A stretch of 26,166 bases of DNA from a virus. Under the pieces are notes generated by a model. The model was not told where the DNA came from and did not search any database. It was given only the letters and a program-made list of their open reading frames with translations. Positions 326 to 20,930 of this stretch are shown here, in pieces; within the stretch, counting starts at the first letter, position 1, and each line of letters begins with the position of its first letter. The DNA lies in the IMG/VR virus record IMGVR_UViG_3300042544_004687, positions 1 to 26,166 of that record. One strand, written 5' to 3'. The position numbers and the translations under genes were made by a program.

Positions 326-682
326 TTATTGTTTTGATGAATTATCATAGAAATATCTATAATCCTCTTTAAAGTCAATATTTTCTAAACTAGGAAATAC
401 TAAATTTAAATATGGAAACATCTTTATTAATACACTATTTACTTTTTTGGTAATTGAATATATTTCCAACCAAGCGTAAATCTTATTATTATAAGAAAGA
501 TAACACCTACTCCCCTTATTGGATTTTGGGAGTTCAGAAACAACTCTCTCATAAAATAAGTCTGACTCTTTAAGTGAGTTTAAAAAAACTATATGTTCAG
601 ACCAATGTTTTTCATTGTCCATATGAATAACTATATCCCTACTTTTGGACTCTGAAATCTCTCTTATAATATCTTTTTCCAT
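326..682 (-). CDS. Unknown 118-aa protein with possible capsid-targeting-like N-terminus
   Basis: I do not recognise this protein. It is 118 aa with mixed charge and no membrane segment. The middle is rich in aromatic residues (CYLSYNNKIYAWLEIYS) and reads like a small alpha/beta fold. Its start, MEKDIIREISESKS, shares the IIRE core with the N-termini of the genes at 3931-4155 and 5661-6113, and is followed by an (I/L)-x-E site (ISE then Ser12). A TAGCTTTG box at 708-715 lies 25 nt upstream and could be the -7 element of a Bacteroidota-type promoter, without a clear -33 partner. The plus-strand gene at 766 diverges from it. Coding status is supported by a full-length frame in a tight intergenic setting; function is unknown. 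Confidence 0.7.
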   Translation of the reverse strand: MEKDIIREISESKSRDIVIHMDNEKHWSEHIVFLNSLKESDLFYERVVSELPKSNKGSRCYLSYNNKIYAWLEIYSITKKVNSVLIKMFPYLNLVFPSLENIDFKEDYRYFYDNSSKQ

Positions 683-707
683 AGTTATAAATAAATTTAA
701 ATTTTTT

Positions 708-715
708 CAAAGCTA
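708..715 (-). promoter_or_regulatory. Possible -7 element (TAGCTTTG) for the 118-aa gene
   Basis: On the minus strand TAGCTTTG matches the Bacteroidota -7 consensus TAnnTTTG, 25 nt before the ATG at 682. At the expected -33 distance there is only a T-run without the TTG core, so the call is weak. It sits back to back with the better plus-strand promoter at 722-753. Confidence 0.35.
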
Positions 716-721
716 TATGAA

Positions 722-753
722 TTTGCTTTTAGTAAAAAAAAGAATTATATTTA
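722..753 (+). promoter_or_regulatory. Bacteroidota-type promoter for the 81-aa plus-strand gene
   Basis: TTTG (722-725), 20 nt, then TATATTTA (746-753). This matches TTTG-N19/20-TAnnTTTG except for the last base of the -7 box. The ATG is 12 nt downstream, so the leader would be very short. Confidence 0.5.
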
Positions 754-765
754 TAAAAAAAAGTT

Positions 766-1011
766 ATGAAAGAGAATCAAGAAAATGAGTTGTTAGATAT
801 GGACTCTACAGATACAGTGTTTGATTCTGAAATTTCAGATTTGAACCATTTAATAAACACAATATTAGATTACTACTCTTTTAGTCAAATAGAAGAAGGG
901 GATGAATGGAAGAAAGGTACAAGTCATGAGAACAAAGCTGTACCTGAGGATGTAAATGAATTGGTTGGATTGGCTTTTAAGACTCAGCTCAAAAAATTTA
1001 TAAAAAAATAA
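766..1011 (+). CDS. Unknown acidic 81-aa protein
   Basis: This is one of only two genes on the plus strand. The 81-aa product is acidic in its first half (MKENQENELLDMDSTD, then several Asp/Glu) and ends in a basic KKFIKK tail. It has no Cys, no membrane segment and no motif I recognise; it reads as mostly helical. It has its own likely promoter at 722-753 and its stop codon runs directly into a bidirectional hairpin terminator at 1011-1031, so it forms a complete single-gene transcription unit, convergent with the unfoldase operon. That neat packaging is the main support for it being real. A small host-takeover protein is possible but not shown. Confidence 0.68.
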   Translation: MKENQENELLDMDSTDTVFDSEISDLNHLINTILDYYSFSQIEEGDEWKKGTSHENKAVPEDVNELVGLAFKTQLKKFIKK

Positions 1012-1031
1012 AGCCTAATTTATTTAGGCTT
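1011..1031. terminator. Bidirectional hairpin terminator between convergent genes
   Basis: AAGCCTAA (1011-1018), loop TTTAT, TTAGGCTT (1024-1031): a perfect 8-bp stem. The minus strand continues into a T-rich run (complement of the A-run at 1002-1010) and the plus strand into TTTTTT shortly after. The stem overlaps the stop codons of both converging genes. Confidence 0.8.
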
Positions 1032-1572
1032 CTATGTTTTTTCCCTCTTTTACTGTATAAATGACTTCTTCAAATATGCAAGTCATTATATCTAATAATG
1101 TAAATTTCACCTTTTTATCAAAACTAAATTCATCACCTTTGTAGATGAGGTTTTCATCTATTACCACAGGTAAATCACCCAACTTATCAAAACCATCCTC
1201 ATCATCTTTGATGTCTTCCATTTTTATTTCAGGAAGTATATATATATACTCATCATCATCCATAAAATCATCTGATTCTATTCTAAAACTTTTATAGAAA
1301 GTTATATTTGACATCCGTCTATCTAATTTAGTTGAGGTAGAGAAAGCTCTTGCAACCTCATACTCTTCTGAAAAATAATCGCCAATAAACTTTTTCAATC
1401 CGTATAAAGCATGTACTAACTCAGATAGCGTAATACCACTTTCTAAGGTGGTATTAAAAGCTAGTAACTGAGTTAGGTAATCATTTAAATCACCAACATC
1501 TTTTGTTGATATTAAATTACCTTCTAGGTAAAATTGGGAATCTTTTCCTATTTTTAAAATTTCTTCTGCCAT
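1024..1572 (-). CDS. Unknown 182-aa protein tightly linked to the Clp-like unfoldase
   Basis: The protein has 182 residues, is acidic, and has no membrane segment or recognisable domain. The central part carries an Asp/Glu-rich stretch (DDFMDDDEYIYILPEIKMEDIKDDEDG). The ATG follows the stop codon of the ClpC-like ATPase by only 4 nt, so both are almost certainly translated from one message and probably at linked levels. Genes so placed after AAA+ unfoldases are often adaptors, substrates or inhibitors; I infer a partner role from position alone. It is not a ClpP: there is no Ser-His-Asp pattern or protease-like sequence. The hairpin at 1011-1031 ends the unit. Confidence 0.8.
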   Translation of the reverse strand: MAEEILKIGKDSQFYLEGNLISTKDVGDLNDYLTQLLAFNTTLESGITLSELVHALYGLKKFIGDYFSEEYEVARAFSTSTKLDRRMSNITFYKSFRIESDDFMDDDEYIYILPEIKMEDIKDDEDGFDKLGDLPVVIDENLIYKGDEFSFDKKVKFTLLDIMTCIFEEVIYTVKEGKNIEA

Positions 1573-1576
1573 ATAA

Positions 1577-3589
1577 TTATGATTTTGTTACAACCACATT
1601 ACCTTTTTTATCTAAACTTAATTTAATAGTAGCTCCTTCTGCAGGATTTTCAATCAACAAGAATTTTGCTATTGGAGTTTCTATGTAAGTCGTTATTGCT
1701 CTTTTAAGAGGTCTAGCGCCGTAATCTCTATCATACCCAACTGATGCTAAGAATTTTTTAACAGCAAGACTTACTGACAACTTGTATCCTTTTTCTTGAA
1801 GTCTTTTGATAAGTTTTGTAAGTTCTAAATCAATTACACTCAAAACATCTTCATCATTTATTGGCTTGAATACTACTTTTTCATCTATCCTATTGATTAA
1901 CTCTGGTTTGAATTTCTTTTTTAGCTCACCCATTACCATATCTGTCACATCATATTCCGCAGATGAAGTTATGAAGCCCATTCTCTTTTCTGTCAATATT
2001 TTTTCTGTACCAATATTAGAAGTTAGTATAATAATAGTGTTTTTGAAATTAACTTCTTTTCCTGAAGAATCTGTAAGTTTTCCTTCGTCCAATATTTGCA
2101 ATAAGATATTAAATAAATCTGGGTGAGCTTTTTCTATCTCGTCAAATAAAACAATAGAATAAGGTCTATTTTTAATCTTTTCTGTCAATATACCTTTTTC
2201 TTCATATCCAACATATCCTGGAGGTGCACCTATTAATTTACTAACACTTATTTTCTCCATATATTCAGACATATCAAATCTAATAAAAGATTCTTCTGTA
2301 TCAAACATAAACTTTGCAAGTGTTTTAGCTAAATATGTTTTACCAACACCTGTAGAACCTAAAAACAAAAATGATGCAATCGGCTTTTCTGGGTCTTGTA
2401 TACCTATCCTTGACCTATGAATAGCATCGACAATTTTCTCAACAGCCTCATTTTGACCTATAACTTTTTCTTTCAGAAACTTATCAAGCTTAATCAGTTT
2501 AATATTTTCAGAGTCAGTAAGTTTGCTCAATGGAATTCCTGTATGTTTTGATACAACTCTTGCGACATCTTCAATTTCAATTGGAATCCTAGATTGTTTT
2601 AATTGTTCTTTCCATTTTATATTCTCCTGCTCTATTAAAGCTAGAATAGTTCTTTGTTTATCTCTGTATATAGCTGCATTTTCATAATCTTGTTTTTTTG
2701 CGGCTATCTCTTTTCTATCAACTATTTCAGACATTTCTGCCTCAAGTTTCTTGAGAGAGTCTGGAATTTTAATTTTATGAAGCTTAACGCTAGCGCCAAC
2801 CTCATCCATTAAATCCAATGCTTTGTCTGGAAAATTTCTATCCGTAATATATCTATCAGATACATCTATACAATTCTTTAATATTTCATCAGAATAAAAT
2901 ACGCCATGAAAATCTTCATATTTTATTTTTACCTGATTTAATATCTCATGTGTTTCCTCTTTTGTAGGAATATTGATATATACTTTTTGAAACCTTCTTT
3001 CGAGGGCACTATCGTTTTCTATCACTTTCTTATACTCATCTAATGTAGTTGCTCCTATGCACCTCATTTCACCTCTAGCTAAAGCTGGCTTAATAATATT
3101 TGCAGCATCCATAGACCCTGACGCACTACCTGCACCAATTACGTTATGAATTTCATCAATGAATATAATAATATCTGGATTTTTTTGAACCTCCTTCATT
3201 ATCTCGTCCATTCTCTGCTCGAAATCACCACGATACTTTGTTCCAGAAATTATAGAAGTAATGTTTAACTCTATAATTTTTTTATTAGCCAAAGACCTAT
3301 CAACTTTTTTTTGATATATCCTTAATGCCAGTCCTTCTGCAATAGCTGTTTTTCCGACACCAGGTTCACCAACCAAAATTGGATTGTTCTTCTTCCTTTT
3401 ATTTAGAATTTCAATCGTTTGGTCGATTTCATCCTCTCTTCCGATTACGGGATCTAATTTTCCTGACACTGCCAACTTTGTTAAATCTTTCCCAAACTTG
3501 TCTAAGTTTGGCGTTGGGCTATTTGTTTTTTTTATCTTATCTTGACCTGCATCATCATCTTCATGGTCAAAAGGTTTTTGTTTTTCCAT
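1577..3589 (-). CDS. ClpA/ClpC-like double AAA+ protein unfoldase without the usual N-domain
   Basis: A 670-aa ATP-driven unfoldase with two AAA+ modules. D1 has Walker A GEPGVGKT (74-81), pore loop KYRGDFE (118-124), Walker B IIFIDEIHN (about 141-149) and an Arg-finger ERR (197-199). A short UVR-like coiled linker follows (about 282-325), as in ClpC/ClpE rather than the long ClpB M-domain. D2 has Walker A GSTGVGKT (411-418), pore loop GYVGYEE (458-464), Walker B IVLFDEIEKA (479-488) and sensor-2 GARPLKR (624-630). An MGF tripeptide (537-539) sits where ClpC/ClpA carry the ClpP-docking loop (VGF/IGL), so docking to host ClpP is plausible. The two-repeat Clp N-domain is absent: only about 30 polar residues precede D1. 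A promoter lies at 3609-3640. A phage role in remodelling or degrading proteins is inferred. Confidence 0.95.
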   Translation of the reverse strand: MEKQKPFDHEDDDAGQDKIKKTNSPTPNLDKFGKDLTKLAVSGKLDPVIGREDEIDQTIEILNKRKKNNPILVGEPGVGKTAIAEGLALRIYQKKVDRSLANKKIIELNITSIISGTKYRGDFEQRMDEIMKEVQKNPDIIIFIDEIHNVIGAGSASGSMDAANIIKPALARGEMRCIGATTLDEYKKVIENDSALERRFQKVYINIPTKEETHEILNQVKIKYEDFHGVFYSDEILKNCIDVSDRYITDRNFPDKALDLMDEVGASVKLHKIKIPDSLKKLEAEMSEIVDRKEIAAKKQDYENAAIYRDKQRTILALIEQENIKWKEQLKQSRIPIEIEDVARVVSKHTGIPLSKLTDSENIKLIKLDKFLKEKVIGQNEAVEKIVDAIHRSRIGIQDPEKPIASFLFLGSTGVGKTYLAKTLAKFMFDTEESFIRFDMSEYMEKISVSKLIGAPPGYVGYEEKGILTEKIKNRPYSIVLFDEIEKAHPDLFNILLQILDEGKLTDSSGKEVNFKNTIIILTSNIGTEKILTEKRMGFITSSAEYDVTDMVMGELKKKFKPELINRIDEKVVFKPINDEDVLSVIDLELTKLIKRLQEKGYKLSVSLAVKKFLASVGYDRDYGARPLKRAITTYIETPIAKFLLIENPAEGATIKLSLDKKGNVVVTKS

Positions 3590-3608
3590 CTTTTAATTTG
3601 TGATTATG

Positions 3609-3640
3609 CAAATATAAGCATTTGACATTAGAAAATCAAC
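3609..3640 (-). promoter_or_regulatory. Bacteroidota-type promoter for the Clp-like gene
   Basis: On the minus strand GTTG, 20 nt, TATATTTG, with the -7 box at 3609-3616, leaving 19 nt to the ATG at 3589. The -7 box is an exact TAnnTTTG match; the -33 site keeps the TTG core. Confidence 0.6.
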
Positions 3641-3641
3641 A

Positions 3642-3656
3642 AAAGGTCAGTCCTTT
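3642..3656 (-). terminator. Weak hairpin over the stop codon of the 69-aa gene
   Basis: AAAGG / CCTTT, 5-bp stem with a 5-nt loop containing the TGA stop, followed on the minus strand by a short T-rich stretch. It lies just upstream of the Clp promoter. Short stem, so low confidence. Confidence 0.3.
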
Positions 3657-3856
3657 ATTTTTTTATTTACCAATTCAATGAATATTATGTCTTCATTCTT
3701 CTCACTTACTCTAATTGCGGAAATATCGTAATTTTCTGTAGAATACACTTTTCTTACTTTATCCCAAATAGCGTCAAAACCCTCATCGTCAATCTCTTTA
3801 GAAGTAACTTCGAGCACTATTTTCTCTAATGTCTTTTGTACAACTCTCATATTCAT
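3647..3856 (-). CDS. Unknown 69-aa protein
   Basis: A small protein of 69 aa with alternating charged and hydrophobic residues (MNMRVVQKTLEKIVLEVTSKE at the start), likely one helix followed by a small sheet. No Cys, membrane segment or known motif. A TAATTTTG box at 3882-3889 lies 25 nt before the ATG. It stands alone between the 74-aa gene and the Clp promoter. I cannot assign a function. Confidence 0.65.
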   Translation of the reverse strand: MNMRVVQKTLEKIVLEVTSKEIDDEGFDAIWDKVRKVYSTENYDISAIRVSEKNEDIIFIELVNKKIKD

Positions 3857-3881
3857 TTGTATTTAACAATAAATAATCAAG

Positions 3882-3889
3882 CAAAATTA
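3882..3889 (-). promoter_or_regulatory. Possible -7 element (TAATTTTG) for the 69-aa gene
   Basis: Exact TAnnTTTG match on the minus strand, 25 nt before the ATG at 3856, but without a TTG at the -33 distance. Confidence 0.35.
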
Positions 3890-3930
3890 CAAAGCAAAGG
3901 TTTTTAATAAAATTGAATTATTTTTTTAAT

Positions 3931-4155
3931 TCATTCCTCAGTTTTATCTTCATCTTCTGAGATTGGAATGTCTTCATCTGTTTCAAATTCTAAATCATTC
4001 CAAAAATCTATTTCAGTTGGTGTATTTGGGTTTTTTTTATCATATTTTGGAAACCTAGTTCCGTCTGTAGAATATATATCAGCCTTATAGAAAGCCATGT
4101 TTCCATATTCAGATAATATCTCTCTTATTATTTTCCTTAAAGCAAAATTCCCCAT
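3931..4155 (-). CDS. Unknown 74-aa protein with possible capsid-targeting-like N-terminus; start codon in a palindrome
   Basis: The 74-aa product starts MGNFALRKIIREILSEYGN, very like MKNLRKIIREMIEE of the gene at 5661-6113. The helix is followed by an L-S-E site (14-16). The rest is polar, with an acidic C-terminal tail (EFETDEDIPISEDEDKTEE). I recognise no domain. It lies 39 nt after the stop of the membrane protein and has no host-type promoter of its own, so it may be co-transcribed. The ATG and first codons lie inside a perfect 34-bp palindrome (4145-4178), which would hide the start codon in an RNA stem. A packaged or head-associated role is an inference from the N-terminus. Confidence 0.75.
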   Translation of the reverse strand: MGNFALRKIIREILSEYGNMAFYKADIYSTDGTRFPKYDKKNPNTPTEIDFWNDLEFETDEDIPISEDEDKTEE

Positions 4156-4178
4156 ATTTATATAAATATGGGGAATTT
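4145..4178. promoter_or_regulatory. Perfect 34-bp palindrome spanning a start codon
   Basis: The half-site AAATTCCCCATATTTAT is followed directly by its exact reverse complement, so all 34 bases are self-complementary. On the minus strand the right half holds the ATG (4155-4153) and codons 2-4 of the 74-aa gene. As RNA it could fold into a stem with a small A/U tip, burying the start codon. As DNA it could be a two-fold site for a dimeric protein. It contains TATAAATA directly before the ATG. It lacks a strong T-run, so a simple terminator is less likely. Confidence 0.75.
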
Positions 4179-4194
4179 CTAAATTTTGGATATT

Positions 4195-5622
4195 TTATTC
4201 TGAAGATAATACCTTAAAGATACCTTTAGCAACAGCATATTCTTTGGCTACCCTTCTATCTGAACCATTCATATCTGTTACTTTTAATAGATTACAAATT
4301 GTCAAGAAATCCAAAACCTCTTTGTCTTCATGTTCTATTCCTCTTGAGTTTAAGTCTTCTACAAACTTAGAATAGTGAGGTAATGTGTCGCCCACATTTA
4401 AAGTGCCATTCATATAAAGAGATTCTAAAAACAATTGATACTTTTCATTTGTTTGTATTCCTTGCAACTTAATATCATTAAGTATTTGAACAGCTTCAGT
4501 AGAACTTATTGAATCACCTGAGTTTTGTTGGATAAATTCACCCTCTTCGTTAGATTTATATTCTATTTTTTCTTCATCTACTTTTTCAACCTCCACTTCC
4601 TCTGCTAATTCCAAAACAGGCTGTTCTTCAATTTCAATAATTTCCAATTGTGGTTCATCCTCTTTTTCATCACTATATTCACTAGGTAAAAGAAATTCTA
4701 TATTAGAATCTAAATCTCCTTCTAAGTCAGCGCTTTTATCGCTTTCTAATTGTTCTTCTATAACCTCATCTTCTTCTTTTTTTCTTGGGACAATATCAGC
4801 TAAATTTTTTATTCCAGCTCTCTCAAGTGTTATGTTTGTTGCAAGAACCAAACATACTGCCATAGGATCAAAAACAAATATCAAAAGCAATATAAAAAAG
4901 TTTACAACAGAATCCATGCTAGACCCTGTCAGTTTAGCAATATATTTTAATGGACCAACCTCGCTTGCTACATCGTTATTTTTTAAACCTAATATTTCCG
5001 TATCTAGTTTTGCAATTTCATCATTTTTTGTTTGTATTTTTTGACCTAAATCATCTGTTTCTGTTATAACTCTAGCTACTTCAGAGTTTGATTGATTTAT
5101 TTGTTCTTCAACCCTCTTTGCTATATTTGCTCTCCCTTTGCTATATAAACTATCAACCCTAGACTCTTGCTGACTTCTTAAAGTAATCAAAGACTGAACT
5201 CTATCTTGTTTTATTTTCTGATTCGATTCTAATCGTGCAATGTCATCTCGAATGATTTTTTTCTTTTGTTCAACTAATGCTATTTGCCCATCAATACTAT
5301 CTAACTTATTCGATGTTTCCGAATATGCGCTTGATAAAAAACCATAAATACCAGCACTTGTAATAAACATAATAGTTATCGTACCTATTGTTAAATAAGT
5401 TCTTAGTTTCCAATCTATTGTTTTCCAATGCCTGTGTAAAAAAGATGCTGTAACTAATTTAGAAAATTCTAAACTAGAAGCCATAATAATAACAGCCTCT
5501 TGAGCACCTCCAAATAACTTAGATAAACCCGTAACAGAAAAGAAAGCTGCTGCACCCGCCAAAGAAAAGGCAGATAACGCAACTAAGAACGGGAAAAAAT
5601 ATTGTTTAATTCTTTCTAACAT
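4195..5622 (-). CDS. Phage membrane protein with four hydrophobic segments and a long coiled coil
   Basis: The protein is 475 aa. Hydrophobic segments lie at about 8-31, 40-58 and 75-98, then a charged coiled coil (about 100-215, rich in Glu/Lys/Gln with leucine spacing), a fourth hydrophobic segment (about 239-263), a very acidic stretch (about 280-365) and a small C-terminal domain (about 375-475). The N-terminal LEFSKLVTASFLHRHWK and the overall layout recall an uncharacterised membrane protein seen in other large T4-like and marine phages; this is from memory, not a search. It probably sits in the host inner membrane; the acidic tail may be cytoplasmic. A consensus promoter at 5627-5657 ends only 4 nt before the ATG. 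Function unknown; roles in superinfection control or anchoring of replication or assembly are guesses. Confidence 0.88.
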   Translation of the reverse strand: MLERIKQYFFPFLVALSAFSLAGAAAFFSVTGLSKLFGGAQEAVIIMASSLEFSKLVTASFLHRHWKTIDWKLRTYLTIGTITIMFITSAGIYGFLSSAYSETSNKLDSIDGQIALVEQKKKIIRDDIARLESNQKIKQDRVQSLITLRSQQESRVDSLYSKGRANIAKRVEEQINQSNSEVARVITETDDLGQKIQTKNDEIAKLDTEILGLKNNDVASEVGPLKYIAKLTGSSMDSVVNFFILLLIFVFDPMAVCLVLATNITLERAGIKNLADIVPRKKEEDEVIEEQLESDKSADLEGDLDSNIEFLLPSEYSDEKEDEPQLEIIEIEEQPVLELAEEVEVEKVDEEKIEYKSNEEGEFIQQNSGDSISSTEAVQILNDIKLQGIQTNEKYQLFLESLYMNGTLNVGDTLPHYSKFVEDLNSRGIEHEDKEVLDFLTICNLLKVTDMNGSDRRVAKEYAVAKGIFKVLSSE

Positions 5623-5626
5623 AATA

Positions 5627-5657
5627 CAAAAATAATAATTAAATTGTTAAAATCAAA
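5627..5657 (-). promoter_or_regulatory. Consensus Bacteroidota promoter for the membrane protein, near-leaderless
   Basis: On the minus strand TTTG (5657-5654), exactly 19 nt, TATTTTTG (5634-5627). Only 4 nt separate the -7 box from the ATG at 5622, so transcription should begin at or next to the start codon. Confidence 0.72.
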
Positions 5658-5660
5658 AGA

Positions 5661-6113
5661 TTATTTTTCTCCTGGCTCAAGATTACTATGAGCATTGTCT
5701 CCCAAATCATGTTTACTCTTAAATTTCTTAATTAATTTTTCAAGAAAAGCAGTTGGTCTAGCTTGAACCTCTGAGTTTGGTTTTAAATCCCTAAGATGCT
5801 TTCTGGTCCAAATATTTATTTCCCCATCATCTAATATATAATCTTGATTATTATAATACCATCTGTCTTTATACCATAAATATAACGGATGTTGTTCACC
5901 ATAAGAATACGCAACATACATTTCACCGAGACCTCCTAAATCTTCTCCATAAGTATGAGAAGCAACAAAATTTTCTCTATTATTTACTTTTTCTGAAGCT
6001 TCTTTATTGGTAATTCTCTCTTCATCTATTTGCGCCTCATCCAACTCAACTTCTTTTGTATTAAGTTCGACTTCTTCAATCATTTCTCTAATTATCTTTC
6101 TAAGGTTTTTCAT
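5661..6113 (-). CDS. Unknown 150-aa protein with possible capsid-targeting-like N-terminus
   Basis: The 150-aa product begins MKNLRKIIREMIEEVE, sharing LRKIIRE with the 74-aa gene at 3931-4155. An L-D-E followed by Ala (24-27) in the next acidic stretch resembles a T4-type head-protease site. A Tyr/Trp-rich central region follows (YVAYSYGEQHPLYLWYKDRW, about 77-96), then a basic segment (FLEKLIKKFKSKH). I recognise no domain. It lies between the ssb terminator and the promoter of the membrane protein. No host-type promoter is visible; instead an AT-rich ATATTTATATATAAAC lies about 14-29 nt before the ATG. A virion-packaged protein is an inference. Confidence 0.8.
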   Translation of the reverse strand: MKNLRKIIREMIEEVELNTKEVELDEAQIDEERITNKEASEKVNNRENFVASHTYGEDLGGLGEMYVAYSYGEQHPLYLWYKDRWYYNNQDYILDDGEINIWTRKHLRDLKPNSEVQARPTAFLEKLIKKFKSKHDLGDNAHSNLEPGEK

Positions 6114-6140
6114 TTAAAAAAGAGTTTATATATAAATATT

Positions 6141-6176
6141 CAACAAAAAACAAAACCCACCTAGTTAGGTGGGTTT
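6141..6176 (-). terminator. Rho-independent terminator after ssb
   Basis: AAACCCACC (6153-6161), loop TAGTTA, GGTGGGTTT (6168-6176), a perfect GC-rich 9-bp stem, followed on the minus strand by TTTTGTTTTTTG. Confidence 0.9.
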
Positions 6177-6201
6177 GAGAATAACAACACAAATTGTTTT
6201 A

Positions 6202-6681
6202 TTAGAATGGCATATCCTCGTCTACTGTGTTAGAAACTAAATTGTTGCTAGTTGCAGTTGCAGTTGCAGGCTCTGCTACATATTGTTGACTTTGCTGTCT
6301 TGCTGCTTCTGTTGACTCAGCAGTAGGCACGCTAGATGTTGATGATACTGAACTTCCATTTGAAAGAATTTTAATTTCAGAACCAGCTATTTTTGTTCTA
6401 TATTGTTTAACACCATCTTTTTCGTAAGAATCTGTTCTTAACTCCCCACAGATGTATAACAACATACCTTTCTTTACATAATTACCACAAAACTGCGCTG
6501 TGTCACCCCAAAATTCTACATTGTGCCACTCAGTCTTGCTTTCTTTCTCCCCGTTTTGTTTCTTATAAGTCTTATTTGTTGCTAAAACAACTCTTGCGAC
6601 TTTTTTGTCATTTTCTAAATGTCTAAGCTCTACGTCTTTTCCTACATTTCCAATTAACTTTACTTCATTTAAACCGTCCAT
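6202..6681 (-). CDS. ssb: Single-stranded DNA-binding protein
   Basis: A bacterial-type SSB of 159 aa. The OB-fold covers about 1-110, with the family signatures NEVKLIGNVGKDVELR, WHNVEFWGDTAQF and KKGMLLYICGELRTDSYEKDG. A Ser/Thr/Ala/Gln-rich flexible linker follows (about 110-152), then the acidic tip DEDMPF, close to the bacterial DDDIPF tail that recruits replication and repair partners. It should coat ssDNA as a tetramer during phage replication. T4-like phages usually carry the unrelated gp32, so a host-like SSB points to acquisition from a bacterium. It is transcribed alone from 6742-6774 to the terminator at 6141-6176 and diverges from the 375-aa gene. Confidence 0.97.
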   Translation of the reverse strand: MDGLNEVKLIGNVGKDVELRHLENDKKVARVVLATNKTYKKQNGEKESKTEWHNVEFWGDTAQFCGNYVKKGMLLYICGELRTDSYEKDGVKQYRTKIAGSEIKILSNGSSVSSTSSVPTAESTEAARQQSQQYVAEPATATATSNNLVSNTVDEDMPF

Positions 6682-6741
6682 AACTTTACTTTTTTGAATT
6701 AATTAAATACTCTACACTAAACATTGGTTGTTAATCTTATA

Positions 6742-6774
6742 CAAATATAATCATTTTATGGTATAAAAATCAAG
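6742..6774 (-). promoter_or_regulatory. Bacteroidota-type promoter for ssb
   Basis: On the minus strand CTTG (6774-6771), 21 nt, TATATTTG (6749-6742), with 60 nt to the ATG at 6681. The -7 box is an exact consensus match. Confidence 0.65.
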
Positions 6775-6856
6775 AAAAAAAACTTTTTTTTCAACACAAT
6801 GTTGATAATTAATAAAAAGCATATTGATTATAAAAAAAACAAATTTTTATTCTATT

Positions 6857-6864
6857 TATAAATA
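6857..6864 (+). promoter_or_regulatory. TATAAATA element before the 375-aa gene
   Basis: No TTG/TAnnTTTG pair is seen before this gene. Instead TATAAATA, identical to the T4 late -10 box, lies 11 nt before the ATG at 6876. In DNA this AT-rich the motif arises often by chance, so it is only a candidate for a different promoter class. Confidence 0.25.
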
Positions 6865-6875
6865 AAACATTAAAA

Positions 6876-8003
6876 ATGGAACAAAACGTTGTCAAAACAA
6901 TTCGTGAAGCCTTTAGAATTGCCTACATCAATAAAATGCTGAAAGAATCTTCTGAGGATATGTCTAGAAGTATGAATCCTGAAGAACTTGCTCAGGCAGA
7001 AGCTAGATACCCTTCTTGGGTTTCTGGAAGACTACCATTAAAATGGGGTAAAGCACAAGGATTAAGTGATGCTGCTCAAAACTACCTAATAGAAAAAGGG
7101 GTAGAAGAATATAAACAAAGTGGAGATAAAAGAATACAAGATGCAATTTCATCATTTTATTATCCAACTGAAAACAGTAAAGTATATAACTACCTTAAAA
7201 GAGATAATAGATTAATTTCTGCACTAAAAAACAGATATAGAGAATCTTGGGAAAGCGCTTTTAATGATGTTGTACTTAATGCCTGGGCTCAATCTATAGG
7301 AGACGTTGTAAAATTTGAGGATACAATTAAAAAATATGTAAAAGATAGCGCTTACGGAATTGGACCAGTTTTATTGAATGATTTGAAATTAGAGCTTCTT
7401 AGATTAGGAATGAAATCTTCTGCAGTAAGAAGAGGCGGAGATTCTAATATGAAATCATTAGATGAGCCTGGATTTGACTCAGAGGGTGGAAGAAAATTTG
7501 ACTTACCTGGTGGAGTAGAAATTAGCTCTGATGAGGAAATGTATGAAAAAATGGCAGACATGATTCAAGATTTTGGTAATCAAACTGCAGGTTATTTTGA
7601 TTCAAAAGGAAAAGAAACATTATCAACTTTAGCAAGAGAGTTTTTCATAAACAGAAAAAGCTATGCTGATATTCTTAGAGATAATTCAGAAATGTTTGCT
7701 GGTAAAAAACCTGGAGATCTTTCAACAATGATGCTTCTTCAAGTTGTGGGACCTCAAAACATTAAAAGTATAGCTGAGAAACTTGGGCCTGAATACGGTT
7801 TCCCTAAAAATTGGCTTGATAATATCATGTCTTCTAAAAACTTAAACACAATTGCTGACCTTTTCAAAGCACTTGATACGACAGCACCTGCTGTTGGAGA
7901 TGAAGAAGAAGTAGATAAAGAAGATGATTTGGTTTTCGAAAAGTTTGTCCAAAACAATATGGATAAAATTATGGAGGAAGTTTACAGAAGAATATCTAAA
8001 TAA
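6876..8003 (+). CDS. 375-aa protein, weakly sigma-factor-like, with possible capsid-targeting N-terminus
   Basis: One of two plus-strand genes. The N-terminus (VVKTIREAFRIAYINKMLKESS) is a basic amphipathic helix ending in L-K-E then Ser25. Residues about 107-180 resemble sigma region 2: NRLISALKNRYRES, then AFNDVVLNAW where sigma factors have DLFQEG-x-GL-x-A, then KFEDTIKKYVKDSA. SLDEPGFDSEGG (194-205) followed by DLPGG and SSDEE resembles the SLDEP-x-G-x-x-DL-x-D linker of sigma-70 proteins. NIKSIAEKLG (295-304) could be the first helix of a helix-turn-helix. Each match is weak alone; their order supports a diverged sigma-like protein, but a structural protein remains possible. It diverges from ssb and ends at the terminator at 8023-8055. 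CDS call is firm, function uncertain. Confidence 0.85.
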   Translation: MEQNVVKTIREAFRIAYINKMLKESSEDMSRSMNPEELAQAEARYPSWVSGRLPLKWGKAQGLSDAAQNYLIEKGVEEYKQSGDKRIQDAISSFYYPTENSKVYNYLKRDNRLISALKNRYRESWESAFNDVVLNAWAQSIGDVVKFEDTIKKYVKDSAYGIGPVLLNDLKLELLRLGMKSSAVRRGGDSNMKSLDEPGFDSEGGRKFDLPGGVEISSDEEMYEKMADMIQDFGNQTAGYFDSKGKETLSTLAREFFINRKSYADILRDNSEMFAGKKPGDLSTMMLLQVVGPQNIKSIAEKLGPEYGFPKNWLDNIMSSKNLNTIADLFKALDTTAPAVGDEEEVDKEDDLVFEKFVQNNMDKIMEEVYRRISK

Positions 8004-20711: not shown

Positions 20712-20930
20712 TCATTTTTTATCCCACTTCACAAGTTTGCCATTTTGACAATTTTCTGCAAAATCTTCTGCTGATATAAAGTCCCAAACACTTTCTCCTT
20801 TTTTTCTTTTATAAAAAACAGAACCTCCAATATCTCTTACCTGAAACTCATATTCAGTGTTTTTTTTAGCCTCAACAATTATACCAGCTAAAGCTTGCAT
20901 TCTATATTTATAATATTCTGATAAAAACAT
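20712..20930 (-). CDS. Unknown 72-aa protein
   Basis: 72 aa. The N-terminal amphipathic stretch FLSEYYKYRMQALAGIIVEA ends in I-V-E then Ala21, which loosely resembles a T4 capsid-targeting peptide (I-A-E then Ala). The rest (YEFQVRDIGGSVFYKRKKGESVWDFISAEDF) reads as a small beta-rich domain. No family recognised. It lies 42 nt after the polymerase stop with no clear promoter. Confidence 0.68.
   Translation of the reverse strand: MFLSEYYKYRMQALAGIIVEAKKNTEYEFQVRDIGGSVFYKRKKGESVWDFISAEDFAENCQNGKLVKWDKK

Follow-up and report, generated by a model that had tools for sequence, protein, structure and literature searches.

Shared N-terminal tags on unrelated proteins of T4-type phages as predicted capsid-targeting propeptides

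A short N-terminal peptide is common to otherwise unrelated proteins encoded by a 26,166-base IMG/VR virus fragment (hereafter the window, meaning the whole stretch of DNA analysed) and by other phage sequences, marine relatives among them. It occurs on 283 protein families, and in the window on the products of the genes starting at 3931, 5661 and 6876. We interpret these shared N-termini as removable capsid-targeting propeptides, with a probability of about 0.78 for a reading that spans docking on the core, cutting, presence in the virion, injection and early action in the host. Docking of each otherwise unrelated protein, on the core or scaffold within the prohead, would fall to an amphipathic helix, which reads [LIV][RK]x[IL]I[RK]E in type A tags and RMQxLAGII in type B tags. 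A prohead protease of the gp21 type (Peptidase_S77) would cut past (L/I)xE during head assembly, and the propeptide would be lost. The freed cargo would remain with the DNA and enter the next host together with it. A preliminary description of the window had proposed a T4-like capsid-targeting role, and this interpretation is supported by enrichment of the motif, a site specific for E, S77 genes in large contigs and the types of cargo.

Hardly anything is so far known of the proteins that large environmental phages inject, since virion proteomics depends on isolates. If the tag predicts head cargo, hundreds of candidate host-takeover or counter-defence families, most without a known domain, would become available from metagenomes alone. 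The tags would also supply new short packaging signals for putting chosen proteins into T4-type heads. Somewhat less firmly, we favour the broader view that they form a general packaging code, in which a few interchangeable tags load up to about 30 mostly orphan proteins per virion in ocean and Bacteroidota T4-type phages. The injected proteome would then be readable from sequence.

Tagged genes in the window

The window has its polA-like, RecA, exonuclease, DnaB, NrdB and NrdA genes arranged in the order seen in Flavobacterium phage vB_FspM_immuto, and window genes 20973 to 13198 match immuto genes 1-10. Judged by the gene order of this module, the window's source is an immuto-like T4-type Bacteroidota phage. 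Immuto (MW353175) is a myovirus of the T4 type, and its annotation includes a terminase, a gp20-like portal, a prohead protease and a gp23-like capsid protein. Two sequences closely related to the window, G006 (52.9 kb) and G007 (71 kb), were located via DnaB and make up the window clade together with the window. At 1577-3589 the window also holds a phage-encoded two-domain ClpB/ClpC-like AAA ATPase (phrog_4871).

All five N-termini quoted in the preliminary description match exactly on re-reading. The gene at 3931-4155 (minus strand) encodes a tagged protein of 74 aa without known domain. Its type A tag (4108-4155, minus strand) is MGNFALRKIIREILSE, with a predicted cut after E16 and Y at P1'. 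The strict motif is matched, and the orthologues in G006 and G007 have the same tag layout, LRKIIREx[LI]SE|Y.

The gene at 5661-6113 (minus strand) encodes a tagged protein of 150 aa, for which the AlphaFold2 model is unusable (pLDDT 40). A type A tag plus linker, MKNLRKIIREM...VELDE, occupies 6036-6113 (minus strand), with a predicted cut after E26 and A at P1'; the full N-terminal stretch up to this site is MKNLRKIIREMIEEVELNTKEVELDE|A. In the G006 and G007 orthologues the helix and L[DE]E|A are constant, and the linker between them differs in length and sequence. A variable linker next to a constant L[DE]E|A is the behaviour expected of a cutting site.

The gene at 6876-8003 (plus strand), transcribed opposite to its neighbours, encodes an all-helical tagged protein of 375 aa. 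Its type A variant tag (6876-6947, plus strand) is MEQNVVKTIREAFRIAYINKMLKE, with a predicted cut after E24 and S at P1'. The structural model places a helix at residues 2-24 with low confidence. TIREAF is retained in the G006 and G007 orthologues, and the sites read LKE|S, INE|S and LKE|A ([LI]xE|[SA]). A fold search of this protein gave no significant match. We considered a virion sigma factor on account of weak Foldseek matches to sigma-RpoB models; this was unsupported, with a best fold E of at least 0.27, and comparing profiles of the protein and of the sigma factor encoded in the window gave no match.

These three genes bear out, by retention in relatives, three of the four main cases that had been described as a helix plus (I/L)xE. 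The fourth, at 326-682 (minus strand; MEKDIIREISE|S), we rejected as a tag carrier. It lacks the L/V-R/K helix motif, and it is unsupported because the site is lost in the G007 orthologue, where ISES is replaced by ICRD. A looser fifth case, the gene at 20712-20930 (minus strand; 72 aa), stands as to helix and site, both retained in G007, and is more aptly regarded as a tag of a second type. Its type B tag (20871-20930, minus strand) is MFLSEYYKYRMQALAGIIVE, with a predicted cut after E20 and A at P1'. LAGII[VS]E|[AS] is retained in G007, and this tag is also found on another cargo in immuto.

Enrichment and spread of the tags

To count type A tags (core [LIV][RK]x[IL]I[RK]E) we used the motif [LIVMF][RKQ]x[ILVM][ILVM][RK]E within the first 25 residues; type B was defined as (R/K)MQxLAGIIxE. 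The regular expression was drafted after inspecting the window, with the expectation taken from internal positions, so the decisive tests are those on other genomes. In the window itself two genes match against 0.04 expected (p=7e-4), and 6876 and 20712 fail the strict expression. The window clade has 10 tagged genes from 6 distinct families against 0.21 expected (p=1e-7). The 15 genomes or fragments that were unselected for the tag have 1868 genes, of which 25 are tagged against 1.67 expected (p=5e-21). When all 3648 genes are taken together, the motif lies in the N-terminal 25 residues of 131 and in the C-terminal 25 of 4. Enrichment across the full gene sets of relatives, a check that the preliminary description had called for, is therefore present, and at N-termini only.

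Such counts leave hardly any room for a chance likeness of short helices in small, acidic, AT-rich proteins. That explanation draws on the commonness of I/L-x-E, an earlier caveat that was well placed (about 14% of any 13-residue stretch has (I/L)xE), and on the lack of conservation of gene 326, one of the five earlier cases. It does not account for the excess of N-terminal over C-terminal matches or for the p-value in the window clade.

Further tagged genes in the window clade include a GNAT acetyltransferase (G006 29378) and a 153-aa protein encoded a few genes from the portal, with sites LFE|A, LFE|V and IIE|S among relatives. Searching IMG/VR with the pattern MKI(S/T)xxQLRxII(K/R)EE returned at least 120 stretches. 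In this database the tag kind MKITKxQLRxIIKEE...LxE is carried by at least 283 unrelated protein families and the type B tag by 83. In the fetched IMG/VR loci, each of which was chosen for at least one tag, 19.8% of genes are tagged against 0.28% expected. Whole contigs carry 31 (G029), 20 (G018), 16 (G035) and 11 (G028) tagged genes. One cargo island (G029:C1:150364-159549) has about 22 consecutive or nearly consecutive tagged small genes in 9 kb, with the head module distant at 25-36 kb.

A scan of 257 Gb of bacterial and archaeal sequence placed the strict type A pattern on 4 contigs only. One MAG was checked among these, and 19 of its 19 tags lie on a single contig that also has the S77 gene. 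NHDW01000006.1, a contig of about 306 kb in the bin of Methylococcaceae bacterium TMED69, has 19 tagged genes together with an S77 protease and is apparently a mis-binned T4-type jumbo phage. PBIO01000025.1, another of the four contigs and part of a Halobacteriovorax MAG, has the same size (101,404) as IMG/VR 2788500220_000014, which indicates viral contamination of a bacterial bin.

A tblastn comparison of the short consensus tag with phage isolates gave no match, and a literature search for the tag sequences found no mention of them. A candidate tag swap on an orthologous gene in locus L523 was dismissed: the genes are unrelated, and both tag types merely coexist there. Immuto has a third tag-like start on two adjacent genes (117631-118931), NF[ND]L[RK][SK]FL[TV]ENKLTxN[AS][QK][LI]LKE, followed by G or N.

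Within genomes, the first two codon positions of the tags show an identity of 0.71-0.85. For identical residues, the third-position values are 0.45-0.62 in four genomes and 0.80 in G028, and the DNA flanking or upstream of the tags is at random identity (0.25-0.28). Because third positions and flanks vary, what is conserved is the peptide and not a copied piece of DNA. Another reading of the shared start is conservation at the DNA level, as a leader that enhances translation or a mobile 5' gene end, which would agree with the tagged genes standing in tandem runs in one genome. We give it next to no weight: DNA-level shuffling and a translation leader are disfavoured by the random identity upstream and by third codon positions, whose conservation falls well short of that at positions 1 and 2 in four of five genomes.

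Predicted cutting site and protease

Site statistics were computed on the 283 type A families left after removing similar mature parts. At +3 to +16 past the helix, 54.8% of families have [LIM]xE, compared with 13-15% further in (about fourfold), and the peak lies 4-5 residues past the helix. [LIM]xD is rarer past the helix, at 9.9% against a background of about 20%. The longer pattern [LIM]xE[ASGN] reaches 27% versus 3%; whichever of two registers the E occupies, the residue behind it is small (p=3e-5 and p=4e-6). N-terminal LxE[ASGN], counted free of the tag motif, is up about twofold in tag-rich genomes (G018, p=5e-6; G029, p=1.5e-5), and LxD is flat in most genomes tested, G026 being the exception. 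For type B, site-residue statistics were left unused because the search pattern itself imposed those residues.

An (L/I/M)xE site that favours E, excludes D and is followed by a small residue is, as far as sequence can tell, what the prohead protease of T4 cuts. The gp21 consensus, (L/I)xE with Asp disfavoured, is found at the end of the peptide. For T4 IPIII, residues 4 and 7 are reported to hold most of the targeting information and residues 8 and 10 the information for processing; Asp at residue 10 blocks processing and still allows targeting (PMC9026906). In about 45% of tagged families no clear [LIM]xE stands directly past the helix, so these may be cut elsewhere (e.g. in-helix I-I-R-E|A) or may be uncut.

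Peptidase_S77 (T4 gp21) is encoded on 14 of 14 type A contigs of at least 114 kb and on 6 of 6 type B contigs of at least 104 kb, a count of 20/20 that covers tag-bearing contigs of at least 104 kb. Shorter tag-bearing contigs often lack S77, as fragments would be expected to. The comparison set consisted of five large contigs picked via NrdA; S77 is present in 2 of 5, and the negative ones, where tested, are without full-length head genes.

The head module has tag-like N-termini as well, in line with a T4-type capsid-targeting sequence: they are found on small genes beside the protease. A small gene adjoining the protease has a tag-like start in G036, G026, G027, G024, G029 and others (e.g. 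MSKISKSKLKTLIKECLVEILTE|ST), and tagged genes lie directly beside it in G029 (30886), G027 (192175) and G024 (94930). Capsid proteins have ENQAxQ(L/V)L(K/R)E immediately ahead of the conserved shell domain. The protease, scaffold and major capsid protein of the window clade were not on any contig found via DnaB, NrdA or portal relatives. With this head module not found, the window's protease is inferred from immuto and other T4-type relatives.

The helix could instead dock a different phage or host partner, such as a regulator, polymerase, adaptor or replication factory, and involve neither packaging nor cutting, LxE then acting as a helix cap. The helix is indeed amphipathic, with basic and acidic residues, a clear LxE is missing from many tagged families, and a literature search found no virion proteomics for immuto or other tag-bearing phages. 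We nevertheless consider this unlikely. It does not explain why E is favoured over D with a register-linked small residue behind it, why every large tag-bearing contig has an S77 protease or why tag-like genes adjoin that protease.

Cargo and comparison with known systems

Only about one in ten of 149 tagged families has a Pfam match. These include GNAT acetyltransferases, P-loop kinase, HAD, NUDIX, L,D-transpeptidase and pterin dehydratase, and a weak match to ART-PolyVal (E 9e-4). PHROGs adds polynucleotide kinase and endolysin. Untagged genes at the same loci, some of which were fetched for S77, belong instead to replication, packaging and chaperone families. In G007, a tagged 57-aa ORF (G007:C1:23818-23991, minus strand) has a very basic, Cys/His-containing remainder, NCKHPKGFSQKAHCDARKKRRSGQKTKSKPLK, and is possibly a DNA-binding head peptide.

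The presence of enzymes bears on whether the tagged proteins are components of the head core (scaffold) that are cut up in maturation, like T4 gp67/gp68, and not injected cargo. Some tagged genes do adjoin the protease, in the three genomes named above, and many tagged proteins are small and acidic. However, tagged genes are too numerous and diverse per genome (31 in G029) and often sit in distant clusters, so that together with the enzymes we judge a scaffold role to be very improbable. We continue to read the tagged proteins as packaged cargo.

The nearest functional counterparts are the propeptides of T4 IPI, IPII, IPIII and Alt, which are likewise short N-terminal peptides on unrelated cargo. 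The predicted cut after (L/I)xE and the gp21-type protease, the latter in the genomes of relatives, are also shared with T4 capsid-targeting sequences. T4 Alt is a leader-bearing ADP-ribosyltransferase that modifies host RNA polymerase (PMC9026906), and by analogy it would be the obvious parallel to the ART-like protein among the tagged cargo here. The tags differ from T4 capsid-targeting sequences in sequence and are usually longer (about 16-26 versus 10-19 residues; in the record of T4 IPIII the leader is annotated as 10 residues). At least two tag types occur here, with tens of cargos per genome versus about four in T4. No significant alignment was found between the tags and the T4 IPI-III leaders, and the general likeness, a hydrophobic-x-E near residue 10, is by eye only. 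The tags appear functionally like T4 leaders, and their sequence similarity to the IPI-III leaders is weak.

Type A tags are nearer to the start of the T4 vertex protein gp24 than the T4 internal-protein leaders are. Gp24 (NC_000866 107323-108606) starts MAKINELLREST; its helix ends in L-[LI]-[RK]-E with S as the next residue, which is near tags such as the G043 sequence MKHTIKKLLRESLLKES. As a shell protein, gp24 is unlike the tagged cargo, and this likeness is one of sequence and not established homology. In the giant phages SPN3US and phiKZ, many inner head or ejected proteins have N-terminal propeptides that a gp21-like protease cuts (PMC5694885). Those propeptides are mostly longer than 100 residues, whereas the present tags have about 20.
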